Assembly: GCA_017526585.1 (NCBI GenBank)
Contig: JAFXRC010000012.1
Location: 1-64,000 of the forward strand
Source of the DNA: Fibrobacter sp.
GTDB taxonomy: Bacteria; Fibrobacterota; Fibrobacteria; Fibrobacterales; Fibrobacteraceae
Reading direction: 5' to 3'
DNA length: 64,000 nt
A program made the translations under genes and the position numbers. Of this stretch, positions 1 through 9,213 are shown one piece after another (positions within the stretch are counted from its first letter, which is position 1; every line of letters begins with the position of its first letter). The notes beneath the pieces were generated by a model. That model had not been told where the DNA came from. It searched no databases and worked only from the letters and a program-made list of their open reading frames with translations.

Positions 1-54
1 CCATGTAAGGTTGCCGCGGTATTTGTACCGCTGCGATATGCTGTAGCTTTTCAT
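1..54 (-). CDS. start of a probable tyrosine-integrase gene (partial)
   Basis: An ATG on the minus strand at 54 opens a frame that stays open to the window edge (18 codons, beginning MKSYSISQRYKYRGNLTW). The short basic/aromatic start with a Y-[KR]-G-x-x-x-W pattern resembles the N-terminal arm-binding domain of phage and island tyrosine recombinases, but 18 residues cannot prove it. The position next to a tRNA fragment (298-336) is where an integrase would be expected. No clear Shine-Dalgarno precedes it. The identification is inference; the open frame is what is seen. Confidence 0.4.
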   Translation of the reverse strand, partial: MKSYSISQRYKYRGNLTW

Positions 55-224
55 ACAAACAAATCTACTAAAATTTGCCTAAAAGTCGGCTCACAAAAAG
101 CTCACAAATGTCTCACATCATACCCGATTTTTGGCGGTTTCCCCCGTCTTTCGGGAAAAACCATTACAAGCGACGGAGAACCGCGACAGACAGTCCAAAT
201 CGCGCCGGAAACCTTGATTTTACT

Positions 225-258
225 GATAAAAAAGGCCCGGAGGCTTTTGCCTTCGGGC
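225..258 (-). terminator. rho-independent terminator downstream of the tRNA fragment
   Basis: On the minus strand a 10-bp stem (GCCCGAAGGC / GCCTCCGGGC, one mismatch) closes an AAAA loop and is followed by CTTTTTT. It lies about 40 nt beyond the tRNA 5' half and would end a tRNA transcript. It also separates that unit from the putative integrase gene. Confidence 0.8.
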
Positions 259-297
259 TTCCAATGGAGTACTTTCTGAAAAATTTCCGGGGCTGGG

Positions 298-336
298 TTG
301 ATAGTCCGCGGCTCTAACCAATTGAGCTAAAGTCCC
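298..336 (-). pseudogene. tRNA 5' half, 3' half missing
   Basis: Reading the minus strand from 336: acceptor 5' strand GGGACTT, TA, a D-arm with stem GCTC/GAGC around AATTGGTTA, then anticodon-stem strand GCGGA and loop CTATCAA. The sequence is textbook up to about tRNA position 38. It then continues CCCAG instead of a pairing TCCGC, and no T-arm (GGTTCGAATCC type) or 3' acceptor strand follows before the terminator. The loop resembles that of tRNA-Asp (CTGTCAA) but the identity is uncertain. A promoter box and a terminator still flank it. A likely cause is integration of an element into the anticodon region with the intact tRNA rebuilt at the other end. Confidence 0.6.
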
Positions 337-346
337 GATAGTGCGC

Positions 347-354
347 CAAATATA
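347..354 (-). promoter_or_regulatory. TATATTTG promoter box of the tRNA unit
   Basis: On the minus strand TATATTTGGCGCA lies 10 nt before the first tRNA base. TATATTTG fits the Bacteroidetes-type TAnnTTTG -7 element. The same 14-base string CTATATTTGGCGCA occurs before rpsP at 40400-40407. Confidence 0.55.
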
Positions 355-380: not shown

Positions 381-1814
381 TTAAAGTCCGAGTTCTCCAA
401 AAATCAGCAGGTATTTGGAAATGGTCCTGCACCATTCGTAGTGGAATCCGCTGTAGGCGTTCACTACGCACTTGTCCCAGTCGGCGACTTCTGTCTTGTA
501 GACATTCAGGGCGTCCTTGACGCAACGCAGCATCTGGTGCGGGGCGTTGGCGTCATCGACGAGGAATGCATTTGCTTCGCCTGCGGTTTCGAGCGCATAG
601 CTCGTAAGCATTGTGGCGACTCCTACCGTGCGACCTGTGAGGGGAAGCGTACCGGCTGCCATTGCCTTTAGGATAATCGAAGAGGATGGCTCGCGGAGAT
701 TGGCGGCGAAAAGGGCGTCTGAGCCTGCGAGCGTATCGCGCAACAGGATGATTCCATCGTCCTTGTCGTTGTCGAGGTCCTGCAGATACATGTTTTCGGG
801 ATACTGCTGGGCGAAGTCCTGGTAGTAGCCCCATTCACTGTTTTTCGACGAAATACCGACGATGATAAAGATGTCCAGTCGCGTAATGTCGGAGAGTACC
901 GTGGCGAGCGTTTCGGATGTGTTGCCCGCTTCTTCGTCCAGATGGACGTAAAGCACCATGCGGTTCTTGAAGTCGACTCCCAACTTATTCTGCAACTTTG
1001 CCTTGGCTCGTGCCTTGGCTTCCTTGATGGGCAGGTTGTCGTCGAGGTTGAAGTCCCATACCTTGTAGCTTACGCCGAACTGGACGCCGATAAGCTTGTC
1101 TGCGCAGCGGTTTAGGAATCCGCTGATGCCGCCGGGCAAGTTGGTGTTGAGCATGGCGTCGCGGTAGCCCGGAGACGGGAACAGCACCTTGGTGGCATAC
1201 AGGATGCCCGCCTTCAAGAGGCTGACCTTGCCCCAGAATTCGTATCCGTCCATGTTGAAGTCTTTAGCCGGAAGACCAATCTTTCCGATTTCGCTTGCAG
1301 CAATGTGGAAATCGTAGGTGATGTTGTGGACGGTAAAGAAGAAAGGAATTTTTCCGGCGAAGTCTTGGTAGGTGGTCTGGGCGAGGGCGCCTGCGAGGGC
1401 TCCGCCCCATTCGTGACCTAGAACGGCCTGGCACTGGAAGTGCGAAGCTTCGGCGTAGGCGAGTGCTGCCGATGCGAGGAAGGCGAACCGGATATGGTTG
1501 TCTGTATACGGGGCACTCTGCGGAGGGCCGTATACATAAGGTCTGCCGAAATACTCCTCATTATATATATAGGTGTGCAGCGGGTCCTTTTCGGATACCC
1601 ATATTTCGTAAGGCTTGTTCTGGAGCTTTTCAACACCCTTGAAGATACAATGGTAGGAATCAATGTCAGCGAGCAGACTTTTGAAGAAGGGGGAGCAGGT
1701 TATAACAGTAGTCCCGGCGCTAGCGAAGGCGTCGGTCATGCGATTGACCGCTGTAGCCAGTGGGCTGGTCTTTCTCCAGTTTCCGGCTTCGGGGCTTACA
1801 ACTAGGATGTTCAT
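381..1814 (-). CDS. glycogen/starch synthase-like protein (GT5 fold)
   Basis: 477 residues, close to GlgA length. The N-terminal Rossmann half begins MNILVVSPEAG, has TVHNI near residue 160 and an EFWGKVSLLKAGILYA segment near 190-205 that matches the GT5 EFxGKxxxxKAGIxxA signature. The C-terminal half has an EPSSSIILKAMAAGTLPL stretch like the EPCGLxQxxAMxYGT region. Known GlgA enzymes transfer glucose from ADP-glucose to glycogen. The N-terminal KTGGLAD sugar-nucleotide loop reads KTSPLAT here, so donor binding or activity may be altered. Start ATG 1814; transcribed toward the tRNA fragment. It may work with the GH57 branching enzyme at 50029, or be a diverged regulator. Family is firm, catalysis is not. 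Confidence 0.75.
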   Translation of the reverse strand: MNILVVSPEAGNWRKTSPLATAVNRMTDAFASAGTTVITCSPFFKSLLADIDSYHCIFKGVEKLQNKPYEIWVSEKDPLHTYIYNEEYFGRPYVYGPPQSAPYTDNHIRFAFLASAALAYAEASHFQCQAVLGHEWGGALAGALAQTTYQDFAGKIPFFFTVHNITYDFHIAASEIGKIGLPAKDFNMDGYEFWGKVSLLKAGILYATKVLFPSPGYRDAMLNTNLPGGISGFLNRCADKLIGVQFGVSYKVWDFNLDDNLPIKEAKARAKAKLQNKLGVDFKNRMVLYVHLDEEAGNTSETLATVLSDITRLDIFIIVGISSKNSEWGYYQDFAQQYPENMYLQDLDNDKDDGIILLRDTLAGSDALFAANLREPSSSIILKAMAAGTLPLTGRTVGVATMLTSYALETAGEANAFLVDDANAPHQMLRCVKDALNVYKTEVADWDKCVVNAYSGFHYEWCRTISKYLLIFGELGL

Positions 1815-5330: not shown

Positions 5331-6938
5331 ATGCTTATGAAAAAGTGTTCGGTGATGCTGTTGGTAGGGCTCATGGCTGCGGCATCTTTTGCCGCAGAGA
5401 CGCTCTTTAGTAATTATGCGTTGAATGTGAACGAAGCCGGAAAGCCCGGTGCGCTTTGGGTGTTTTCTCGTGGTGATATCTATAGCGGTGCAACGCTCTT
5501 GACCTTGAACTTGGGAACATCGGGTGTGCAAGTTTCCGGTTCCGAGCAGGGGCAGGTTTCTGATTCCATGACGGCAGTACAGGATGGAATTTTTAGCGAT
5601 GTGCTTGCTGAACATAGGCGGACACCGTCGGTCTATGCGGGAAAGCTGGGCTATGTGCTTCCGATGGTCGGCTTGGATGACGAAGGAAACCATTTGCAGC
5701 CTTCGGGCTTCTTGTCGGTGCGAGGCGTAGACAATATCGTAGAGACACCGTTTGAAGTATTCGAAGCTATGGAAGATCTTGACTCGGCTATGCATTATGC
5801 CGTGAGTGGATTCGCATACGATTCTGTCAAGAATCAGCTTTGGATGGCGCGCGGAGCCGCGGGGCTTGGCTTGTATGACTTTTCTGGCAAGGGCTCAGCG
5901 AAAAAGGAAAATTATGTGCTGAATACTTCTACCGAAACTTTGGAACTTGCCAAGTCCAACTACAAGTGGAATGCCAAGAAAAATCCGTATGTATTTGACG
6001 TGAAGCAGCACCCTGAAACGGGAGAGCTTTGGCTTGCGACATCGAAGGGGCTTTGGAAGCGCAGCTCGGATGGCAAGGTTTCGAAGGTCTCGACAAAGTT
6101 GGATTCGACGGCTCGCGTGACGGGTCTTTGGATGGGCGGCGACCCGCTTCAGATTATCTCAGAGACTTCTTACAAGGAGAAGGAGTCGGTGAAGGGTGCC
6201 TTGTGGGTGCTCCGCAAAAAGGCGAAGGATTTTTCGAAGGTCGTGTTCCTGGATACAGCGGGCAAGGCTCAGAAGAAGGATGTCTACGATGATGGGGACT
6301 TCACCGTGAGTGGAGTTGCCTTTGTCGGAAAGACTGCCTTTGTCGCTGTCGGTACATCCGGCGGTTCTGTCAGCGGATACTTCAAGCTGGATTCTGCGGG
6401 AATCCGTGCGTGGGACAAGGATGATGACGGCAAGAACCAGTGGCTCTATGGTTATGAAACCGGTGCGACGGACCGCGATGCAATTATCACGTCTATTTGT
6501 TCGTTCCCGTTGAAGAAGGATTTGACGGGGCTTGCGATTGCCACATACGGCAACGGAATTTCTGTTTCAGCCGATTCCGGGAAGACCTGGTCTACGATTC
6601 TAAACCGCGCCAAGCTGGGCGGCAATCTGGGTTCCATCCGCATGGTTCCTTCGGTGATTACGGCGGGGGACCAGTCGCTGGTTTCTTATAAGGTTGGCAA
6701 GGAATCGAAAATTACGATTGATGTGTTTAGCTACGATATGCGGAAAATCCGCACCATCGTCAAGGATGCGCCCCGCGATGCAGATGCTTCGCGCAGCACG
6801 AATCCCAAGGAAGACTTCTGGGATGGAAAGGACAAGACGGGTAGGCCCTGCACCATGGGCGTCTACTATGTGCGCGTCAAGGACAACCACGGTCATGTCG
6901 GCTGGGGAAAGGTGATGACCTTGGGAGGGCACAAGTAA
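5331..6938 (+). CDS. secreted beta-propeller protein with C-terminal FlgD-like Ig domain
   Basis: 535 residues. AAGAAGGA lies 9 nt before ATG 5331; a TTG at 5325 and an ATG at 5337 are alternatives. The signal peptide ends near SFAAET. The middle has repeated blade-like motifs (ETGELWLATSKGLWKRSSDG, ISVSADSGKTWS) typical of regulator/BNR propellers. The last 110 residues (ITIDVFSYDMRKIRTI, WDGKDKTGRPCTMGVYYVRV) match the FlgD Ig-like module that Bacteroidetes and Fibrobacter use as a C-terminal sorting or anchoring domain. The next gene, a PorV-like barrel, begins at the last base of this stop codon. Possible type IX-like cargo; function inferred. Confidence 0.65.
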   Translation: MLMKKCSVMLLVGLMAAASFAAETLFSNYALNVNEAGKPGALWVFSRGDIYSGATLLTLNLGTSGVQVSGSEQGQVSDSMTAVQDGIFSDVLAEHRRTPSVYAGKLGYVLPMVGLDDEGNHLQPSGFLSVRGVDNIVETPFEVFEAMEDLDSAMHYAVSGFAYDSVKNQLWMARGAAGLGLYDFSGKGSAKKENYVLNTSTETLELAKSNYKWNAKKNPYVFDVKQHPETGELWLATSKGLWKRSSDGKVSKVSTKLDSTARVTGLWMGGDPLQIISETSYKEKESVKGALWVLRKKAKDFSKVVFLDTAGKAQKKDVYDDGDFTVSGVAFVGKTAFVAVGTSGGSVSGYFKLDSAGIRAWDKDDDGKNQWLYGYETGATDRDAIITSICSFPLKKDLTGLAIATYGNGISVSADSGKTWSTILNRAKLGGNLGSIRMVPSVITAGDQSLVSYKVGKESKITIDVFSYDMRKIRTIVKDAPRDADASRSTNPKEDFWDGKDKTGRPCTMGVYYVRVKDNHGHVGWGKVMTLGGHK

Positions 6939-7990: not shown

Positions 7991-9213
7991 TTTCCAAAAT
8001 CCACATTGAAGGTGTGCGTAGCCTTTCCGAGTTCGATTGCGAGTTCGGACCGGGCATCACCGTGGTTCACGGTATAAACGGTTGCGGCAAGACGACGCTT
8101 CTGGAATCGGTTCACTTGCTTTCGCAAGGTTTTTCTTTTAGAGCACGTGACTTAAAGGAGCTTATCGCCTGGAAGGGGGATCAGTTCCTGATTCGTGGAG
8201 AATTTGAAGAAGAGCGTCTTGCAAACCAGGTGAATCGTGCTATCCGTGTAGGACGCCGTAGCTGCGAAGTACGTGAAAACGGCGAGTCGCTCAAATCCCC
8301 GGCGGCCTTTTTCGGAAGCTTACCGGCGGTGGTGATGCAGCCTTCGGACATTGAACTTTTGCGGGGCGCCCCTGAAGTCCGTCGCAGTTGGCTCGATGAA
8401 ATCCTCTGTTTCCGTTCGCCGGCGAACGCTTCTGTTTTAAGGCGTTATCGTCGTGTGCTGCAGCAGCGCAATAAGTGGCTCCGCGATTACAAACGCAGCG
8501 ATGGTGCGCTCTCTGTCGGCGGCGAAGACTTGTTCCATATTCTGACGGAACAGCTGATTGACTTGGGTGCAAAACTTTGGGCGGCGCGCCTGTCGTTGTC
8601 GAAGGAGATTTCCCCGATTATCACGGGCTATTACCGTAGACTGTCGGGTGGCGTCGATGAAATTACCTGTGCCTACAAGAGCTCAATTCTCAAGGAACTC
8701 GACGCGCTTGACGGTGCGGAGTTCCTTGACGATTCTGATCTGGACCGGGCTGCGTTCGCAGCTGAAAGCGGAGCTCCTTACCGCATTGCGGATAATATCT
8801 CCGGCGAATGCGACGATGGCTCTGTTGATGAAGAGTCGCTGCGGATAGCCTATGGTCGCAAGCTTTCGGGGCTAGAAATTGCAGAAAAGTCCTTTGGCGG
8901 TACTCTGGCGGGGCCACACCGCGACGACCTGGGCGTGTGCATCGGTGGTGCCGAAATGCGGTCGTCGGGGTCGCAGGGACAATGCCGTTCTGCTGCGGTT
9001 GCCATGCGTTTTGCCGCGGTCGATGTGGCGAGCCGCTACCTGAGCAAGCCGATCCTTCTGCTGGACGATATTTTTGCTGAACTCGATGTGAACCGCCGCG
9101 ATTCCGTCGCTACCCTCATTCGCGAAAAGGGCTGCCAGGTGATTATCGCGACACCGCAGTTCGAGGAACTGCCGTTTAAGGCAGATGCTGAAATTGGACT
9201 TAGTCTCAAATAA
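7987..9213 (+). CDS. recF: DNA replication/repair ATPase RecF
   Basis: 408 residues. Walker A is GINGCGKTT at about 30-38 and the C-terminal Walker B/D-loop is LLLDDIFAELD. FxRAR-like and QPSDIELLRGAPEVRRSWLDE motifs are typical of RecF, and GPHRDDL is also present. RecF loads RecA at single-strand gaps with RecO and RecR. Start GTG 7987 overlaps the stop of the barrel gene (GTGA). Unusually, recF sits behind envelope genes instead of beside dnaN and gyrB. A terminator follows. Confidence 0.92.
   Translation: MISKIHIEGVRSLSEFDCEFGPGITVVHGINGCGKTTLLESVHLLSQGFSFRARDLKELIAWKGDQFLIRGEFEEERLANQVNRAIRVGRRSCEVRENGESLKSPAAFFGSLPAVVMQPSDIELLRGAPEVRRSWLDEILCFRSPANASVLRRYRRVLQQRNKWLRDYKRSDGALSVGGEDLFHILTEQLIDLGAKLWAARLSLSKEISPIITGYYRRLSGGVDEITCAYKSSILKELDALDGAEFLDDSDLDRAAFAAESGAPYRIADNISGECDDGSVDEESLRIAYGRKLSGLEIAEKSFGGTLAGPHRDDLGVCIGGAEMRSSGSQGQCRSAAVAMRFAAVDVASRYLSKPILLLDDIFAELDVNRRDSVATLIREKGCQVIIATPQFEELPFKADAEIGLSLK

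Follow-up and report, generated by a model that had tools for sequence, protein, structure and literature searches.

Very probably, the window opens at attL of a temperate, myovirus-like prophage that has split the single-copy tRNA-Ile2(CAU) gene of its Fibrobacter host and supplies an intron-containing replacement for it. The window, i.e. the whole stretch of 64,000 nucleotides that was analysed, corresponds to bases 1-64000 of contig C11 of the source genome (G000; 2.85 Mb, 81% complete), and its base 1 is base 1 of the contig, so nothing is readable further to the left in this genome. The source genome was searched for attR, the introned tRNA, the phage portal gene and the downstream host flank, none of which was found assembled; as only the left junction is present there, the remainder of its element has to be deduced from relatives. 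The features at and around the junction are:

1..54, minus strand: first 18 codons of a tyrosine integrase gene, MKSYSISQRYKYRGNLTW, by translation; ATG at 54, running to the contig end
1..302, minus strand: prophage left end on the attP side of attL, cut off by the contig edge, by identity to the element ends of relatives
about 258-228, minus strand: terminator-like hairpin GCCCGAAGGCAAAAGCCTCCGGGC with a T run, by folding, between the broken tRNA and the integrase
303..315, minus strand: attL core AGAGCCGCGGACT, the host-tRNA stretch retained at both attL and attR in relatives
303..336, minus strand: 5' half of tRNA-Ile2(CAU), nucleotides G1 to U33, 34/34 identical to the intact tRNA at the same locus in L059 and L066
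349..354, minus strand: -10-like box TATATT upstream of the tRNA half, with an identical box 5' of the intact tRNA in relatives
381..1814, minus strand: glycogen/starch-synthase-type glycosyltransferase (PF08323, E=3.1e-38), the host gene flanking the site, with an orthologue beside the intact tRNA in empty-site relatives

On the minus strand, positions 336-303 read GGGACTTTAGCTCAATTGGTTAGAGCCGCGGACT, and directly after T33 the sequence switches to ATCAACCCAGCCCCG. A preliminary description of the same sequence had noted a tRNA promoter box, an exact tRNA 5' half of 39 bases and a terminator after the junction. The box was confirmed as the TATATT at 354-349 and the terminator as a GC hairpin followed by a T run, which a simple terminator scan did not call because it permits no bulge in the stem. 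The tRNA half is also real, with the correction that the true identity covers 34 bases and not 39, the AACCC after base 34 looking tRNA-like only because attP itself resembles the anticodon arm. ARAGORN did not call any tRNA in the window. Where the site is empty in other genomes of the genus, the glycosyltransferase gene is again present and an intact tRNA with a CAU anticodon comes after it; in two of these genomes the first 34 bases of that tRNA are identical to the window. Since the initiator tRNA-Met (contig C4) and the elongator tRNA-Met (contig C10) are both located elsewhere in the source genome, the broken CAU gene is, by elimination, that of tRNA-Ile2(CAU), which reads AUA codons. 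The enzyme that enables AUA reading, TilS, is encoded in all four genomes tested; AUA is present in 32 of the 43 ORFs of the window, and its share of isoleucine codons is 8% in the window versus 21% in the prophage of the related genome G003.

The identical left junction (...CGGACT^ATCAACCCAGCCCCG) was read in 12 Fibrobacter genomes and so is not due to chance. The 302 bp on the prophage side are 97.4-98.0% identical to the element ends of G034, G036, G030, G022 and G003, and 95.7% identical to that of G031. Elsewhere in the source genome, on contig C25 (3440-3512 and 3657-3730; L036), a near-identical copy of a tRNA-Arg(CCG) gene lies 217 bp ahead of it; the copy shares the upstream sequence, has a broken T arm and looks like a duplication from another integration event.

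The frame read from position 54 had been taken for the start of an integrase leaving the contig, and its translation agrees with this: its 18 residues are exactly those that open a tyrosine recombinase of 343 aa encoded in L071 and L074. The recombinase of the relatives contains the PF00589 domain (E=3.7e-19), and its ATG is located about 250 bp from the tRNA junction. An integrase with at least 95% identity is found in seven of the 12 genomes with a split tRNA versus none of the 41 others (Fisher p=5e-6). A peptide-pattern search of IMG/VR gave no close integrase relative, and the identity to phage records is about 25-30%, with the closest among the matches listed at no more than 30%.

The extent of the element can be seen from the comparison of the empty-site genome G005 with G003 (100% complete). 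In G005 the tRNA is intact, the upstream 590 bp are 87.8% identical to the attL flank of G003, and the downstream 1.5 kb are 92.2% identical to its attR flank; in G003 both flanks are present 51.5 kb apart. The genes between them code for the integrase, RecT, a helicase-exonuclease, tail sheath, baseplate and tape-measure proteins, terminase, portal and Mu-F proteins, as well as QueC, GTP cyclohydrolase I, a queuine-transferase-like protein and ABC transporter components. The element at the broken tRNA is, judged from these genes, a predicted myovirus-like prophage, and the accessory island that had been supposed to lie left of the window thus turns out, from the element ends of the relatives and the gene content of G003, to be a prophage. 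The element of G030 is only 15.5 kb long and is read as a deletion derivative. The genes for QueC, GTP cyclohydrolase I and the queuine tRNA-ribosyltransferase-like protein (L068, G003 prophage, C2:150917-153806) are the combination that would be expected if DNA or tRNA were modified with 7-deazaguanine. The stretch from the Mu-F gene to the introned tRNA (L069 and L071) holds genes for an ABC transporter, consisting of an ATPase and ABC-2 permeases, and others; they look like lysogenic cargo and are retained in the decayed remnants of G004 and G014.

The right junction was read in ten genomes and consists of the element sequence GGGACAGGGCAGAGC, two variable bases, CGGACT and then CATAACCC of the host tRNA. 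The sequence shared by attP and attB comprises a 13-bp core, AGAGC-NN-CGGACT, plus AACCC beyond a three-base anticodon difference, and attR holds just the tRNA 3' half behind the core. No tRNA was detected by ARAGORN at either junction in L067-L071, where its sole call was a tRNA-Gly outside the element, nor in the attL and attR junction sequences run alone. As neither tRNA half is carried at the phage ends, integration in the relatives splits the host gene for good. The anticodon loop had been named in the preliminary description as a known integrase target, and in the relatives an integrase-borne element does enter there; the further supposition that such an element rebuilt the intact tRNA at its far end has to be given up. 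A tRNA-Ile2-like fragment of the source genome (C70:18943-18978; L037 about 5944-5979, minus strand) covering tRNA positions 7-42 with 94% identity and ending in CATAACCC was considered as the partner half and rejected, as its neighbours are unrelated genes and no integrase is in view; it may be a relic or a decoy att site.

A complete tRNA-Ile2(CAU) gene is located inside the prophage of the relatives, about 2.4 kb from attR and in the opposite orientation. It is interrupted by 237 nt between U36 and A37, directly after the anticodon, and its joined exons are identical at 74 of 74 positions to the intact gene of G008 and G018 and are recognized by ARAGORN as an ordinary CAU tRNA. The insert matches the group I intron model of Rfam (RF00028) over its full length with E=0.0076 and a score of 19.5 bits, which is below the curated cut-off of 50. 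A P1-P9 structure with P3 and P7 arranged as a pseudoknot was written by hand, and its 55 pairs were tested over 11 distinct sequences: 98.7% of the cells pair in helices P1-P9, P3 and P7 included, and 16 of the 55 pairs change on both sides, among them one pair of the P3 pseudoknot helix, a number reached in none of 500 shuffles and compared with 0-3 in slid controls. In P1, CAU36 pairs with GUG of the internal guide in all 11 sequences. The tRNA-Ile(CAU) intron of Azoarcus probably has this CAU-GUG pairing, the same insertion point (after U36) and much the same core motifs.

Group I introns usually end in G (omega-G). For an exact restoration of the tRNA, the 3' boundary in all ten distinct Fibrobacter copies has to be ACGUA^AACCC, so that the apparent omega is A; the nearest G is two bases upstream, and splicing there would leave UA in the anticodon loop, which ARAGORN reads as a different anticodon. 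With omega-G absent, the insert is called a group I intron by its modelled core structure only and is not claimed as a fully standard member of the class. The intron is predicted to splice itself out of the tRNA. Named records with the same intron as in the relatives are Fibrobacter MAGs, including sheep-omasum and horse-faeces isolates, and a search of phage records for the intron gave no relative.

The state of the tRNA-Ile2 gene was then surveyed in 61 Fibrobacter genomes with a direct 75-base tRNA query, and 53 of them were classed as split, intact or introned. The gene is split in 12 genomes, none of which has an intact copy. Every one of the six split genomes in which the attR side is assembled for more than 2.4 kb into the element (G003, G006, G030, G031, G036 and G081) has the introned phage-type tRNA, the other six assemblies either ending about 30-1450 bp from each junction seen or missing the right end. 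In G003 and G030, both 100% complete, no tRNA-Ile2 was found besides the introned one, and the complete empty-site genome G005 has a single tRNA-Ile2. At the level of assembled genomes, the relatives present site-specific insertion into the anticodon arm, whereby the sole intact tRNA-Ile2 gene is lost, and an introned replacement in the same element.

Four genomes (G004, G014, G067 and G069) possess an intact gene together with an introned phage-type copy, which in the two examined, G004 and G014, lies within a prophage remnant without both ends. In five others (G011, G025, G035, G078 and G080) a diverged introned tRNA-Ile2 is the sole copy, and no prophage ends were found at the locus. In the four genomes examined with the host gene in view, this sole introned gene is convergent with the glycosyltransferase gene, the orientation that would be expected after decay of a prophage around its replacement tRNA at the site. 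From G082 (99% complete) the 75-base query recovered no recognisable tRNA-Ile2, whatever its state; the AUA reader of this genome may have diverged too far or be interrupted.

These arrangements suggest a mechanism in which the tyrosine integrase would recombine the 13-bp core where it lies in the anticodon arm of the one tRNA-Ile2(CAU) gene of the host, and the prophage would compensate for the break with its own tRNA-Ile2(CAU) near attR, where the gene and the intron after U36 are seen directly and splicing is presumed. Lysogeny would then depend on the phage tRNA because AUA codons still need reading. In the replacement gene the intron would take away the right (AACCC) half of the integrase target, so the phage should neither integrate into its own copy nor be displaced by a sibling, and in this way the intron may shield the replacement tRNA from the phage integrase. 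After prophage decay, the introned gene may persist as the sole copy of the cell. That a temperate phage uses a predicted self-splicing group I intron as a shield of its att site, and that decay leaves the bacterium living on an introned tRNA, is proposed tentatively, with somewhat less than an even chance of being right.

Given the same prophage biology, the intron could equally be a neutral passenger picked up with the host tRNA gene and having no shielding role, a reading which comes close to an even chance. It is favoured by the five genomes with a diverged introned tRNA-Ile2, for which neither prophage ends at the locus nor a close integrase anywhere in the genome were found, by the occurrence of group I introns in tRNAs of viral contigs, where they are common and the tRNAs need not be att sites, and by the actinophage paper on tRNA-dependent lysogeny, which describes no intron in the phage tRNAs (PMC10865867). 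A shielding role is favoured by the placement of the intron exactly where the AACCC half of the att site is removed, and by the attR sites, as all ten that were read are in uninterrupted alleles; counted over all copies, 0 of 16 introned ones are split versus 12 of 48 uninterrupted ones (p=0.03, the copies not being independent).

Ordinary integration, in which the element brings the missing half and an intact tRNA is rebuilt at the far end, is the usual arrangement for tRNA-targeting integrases (PMC10865867), but it is very improbable here and is refuted for the relatives: both junctions were read in ten genomes, attP and attB share nothing more than the 13 bp and AACCC, there is no tRNA at either end, and an intact tRNA-Ile2 is absent from all 12 split genomes. 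The 5' half might also be the first exon of an introned or split tRNA with no insertion junction, since the break is in the anticodon loop, where group I introns of bacterial tRNAs occur. This hardly deserves any credence and is excluded by the sequence, as the break comes after U33, Rfam detects no intron past the half, the end of the element contains no 3' exon, and what follows is a hairpin and the integrase gene common to the prophages. An assembly chimera of a tRNA and a phage contig has just as negligible a probability; the position of the junction 300 bp from a contig end is typical of repeats, but exactly the same join is present in 11 other genomes, two of which span both ends of the element in long contigs (410 kb and 1.15 Mb).

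tRNA-dependent lysogeny was described in 2024 for actinobacteriophages (Fionnbharth and others), whose core measures about 10 bp and whose phage-borne tRNA has the same isotype, and the Gordonia phages OneUp and Mollymur use tRNA-Ile2-CAT as the target (PMC10865867). The Fibrobacter elements resemble these phages in having a tyrosine integrase at the att site, attB in a host tRNA, a short core, no functional tRNA at attL or attR, a phage-borne tRNA (in six relatives) and no redundant host copy. They differ in the host phylum, in the integrase, which is at most 30% identical to the closest phage records among the matches listed, in the group I intron at the anticodon of the replacement tRNA and in that the tRNA requirement is deduced here from genomes. 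The arrangement in Fibrobacter is, as far as genome comparison can tell, tRNA-dependent lysogeny with a new twist, the att target of the replacement being split by a predicted self-splicing intron. Outside Actinobacteria, the cognate tRNA is likewise substituted in the prophages Lj965 of Lactobacillus johnsonii and of Sinorhizobium meliloti as cited in PMC10865867 and PMC11476347, with no intron reported in those citations.

As for the intron, that of the Azoarcus tRNA-Ile(CAU), a group I intron of subgroup IC3 according to its citation in PMC3984707, is in the same tRNA isoacceptor and has a group I core, whereas the Fibrobacter intron is prophage-borne, belongs to another phylum, and has an extra insertion hairpin in P7 and an apparent omega-A. 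The notion that tRNA introns may protect against integration was put forward for archaea in the Randau-Soell idea and the Caldiarchaeum model (PMC4090602, PMC3293823). There, too, an intron in a tRNA gene breaks attB of an integrating element and was possibly brought by the element itself; unlike the archaeal case, with its protein-spliced introns and reconstituted target, Fibrobacter has a ribozyme-type intron and a separate replacement gene. No paper combining tRNA-dependent lysogeny with intron protection was found in a literature search that left out most subscription journals.

The present case extends tRNA-dependent lysogeny to Fibrobacter and adds to it a component that the cited papers do not describe, an intron that may bar the replacement tRNA as an attachment site, so the archaeal proposal of protection against integration becomes directly testable in a bacterium. 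It also offers a possible reason why group I introns have persisted in the anticodon loops of tRNA genes in bacteria and, if the shielding role holds, a route by which such introns would be fixed at the anticodon. In practical terms, an essential tRNA of these genomes escapes tRNA-finders when these are run with introns disallowed.

In a review of 2014, phage group I introns were known only from protein genes (PMC3984707). The idea that phage tRNAs with group I introns are without precedent was dropped, as a 17-base core motif, GAAGGTGTAGAGACTAG, matches at least 120 IMG/VR contigs. One viral contig (L142, IMGVR_UViG_3300028914_001983, about 8850-9200, plus strand) has terminase-like and UvsX-like genes and encodes a tRNA-Ile2(CAU) of its own, in which the anticodon is followed by a divergent relative of the Fibrobacter group I intron that ends in a normal omega-G (CGUG^AACCC). 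When ARAGORN was run with introns allowed, many of the 80 loci listed (L139-L218) proved to contain a tRNA, often Leu-UAA and often within a tRNA cluster, interrupted by an intron of about 200 nt, and group I introns in phage tRNAs look common.
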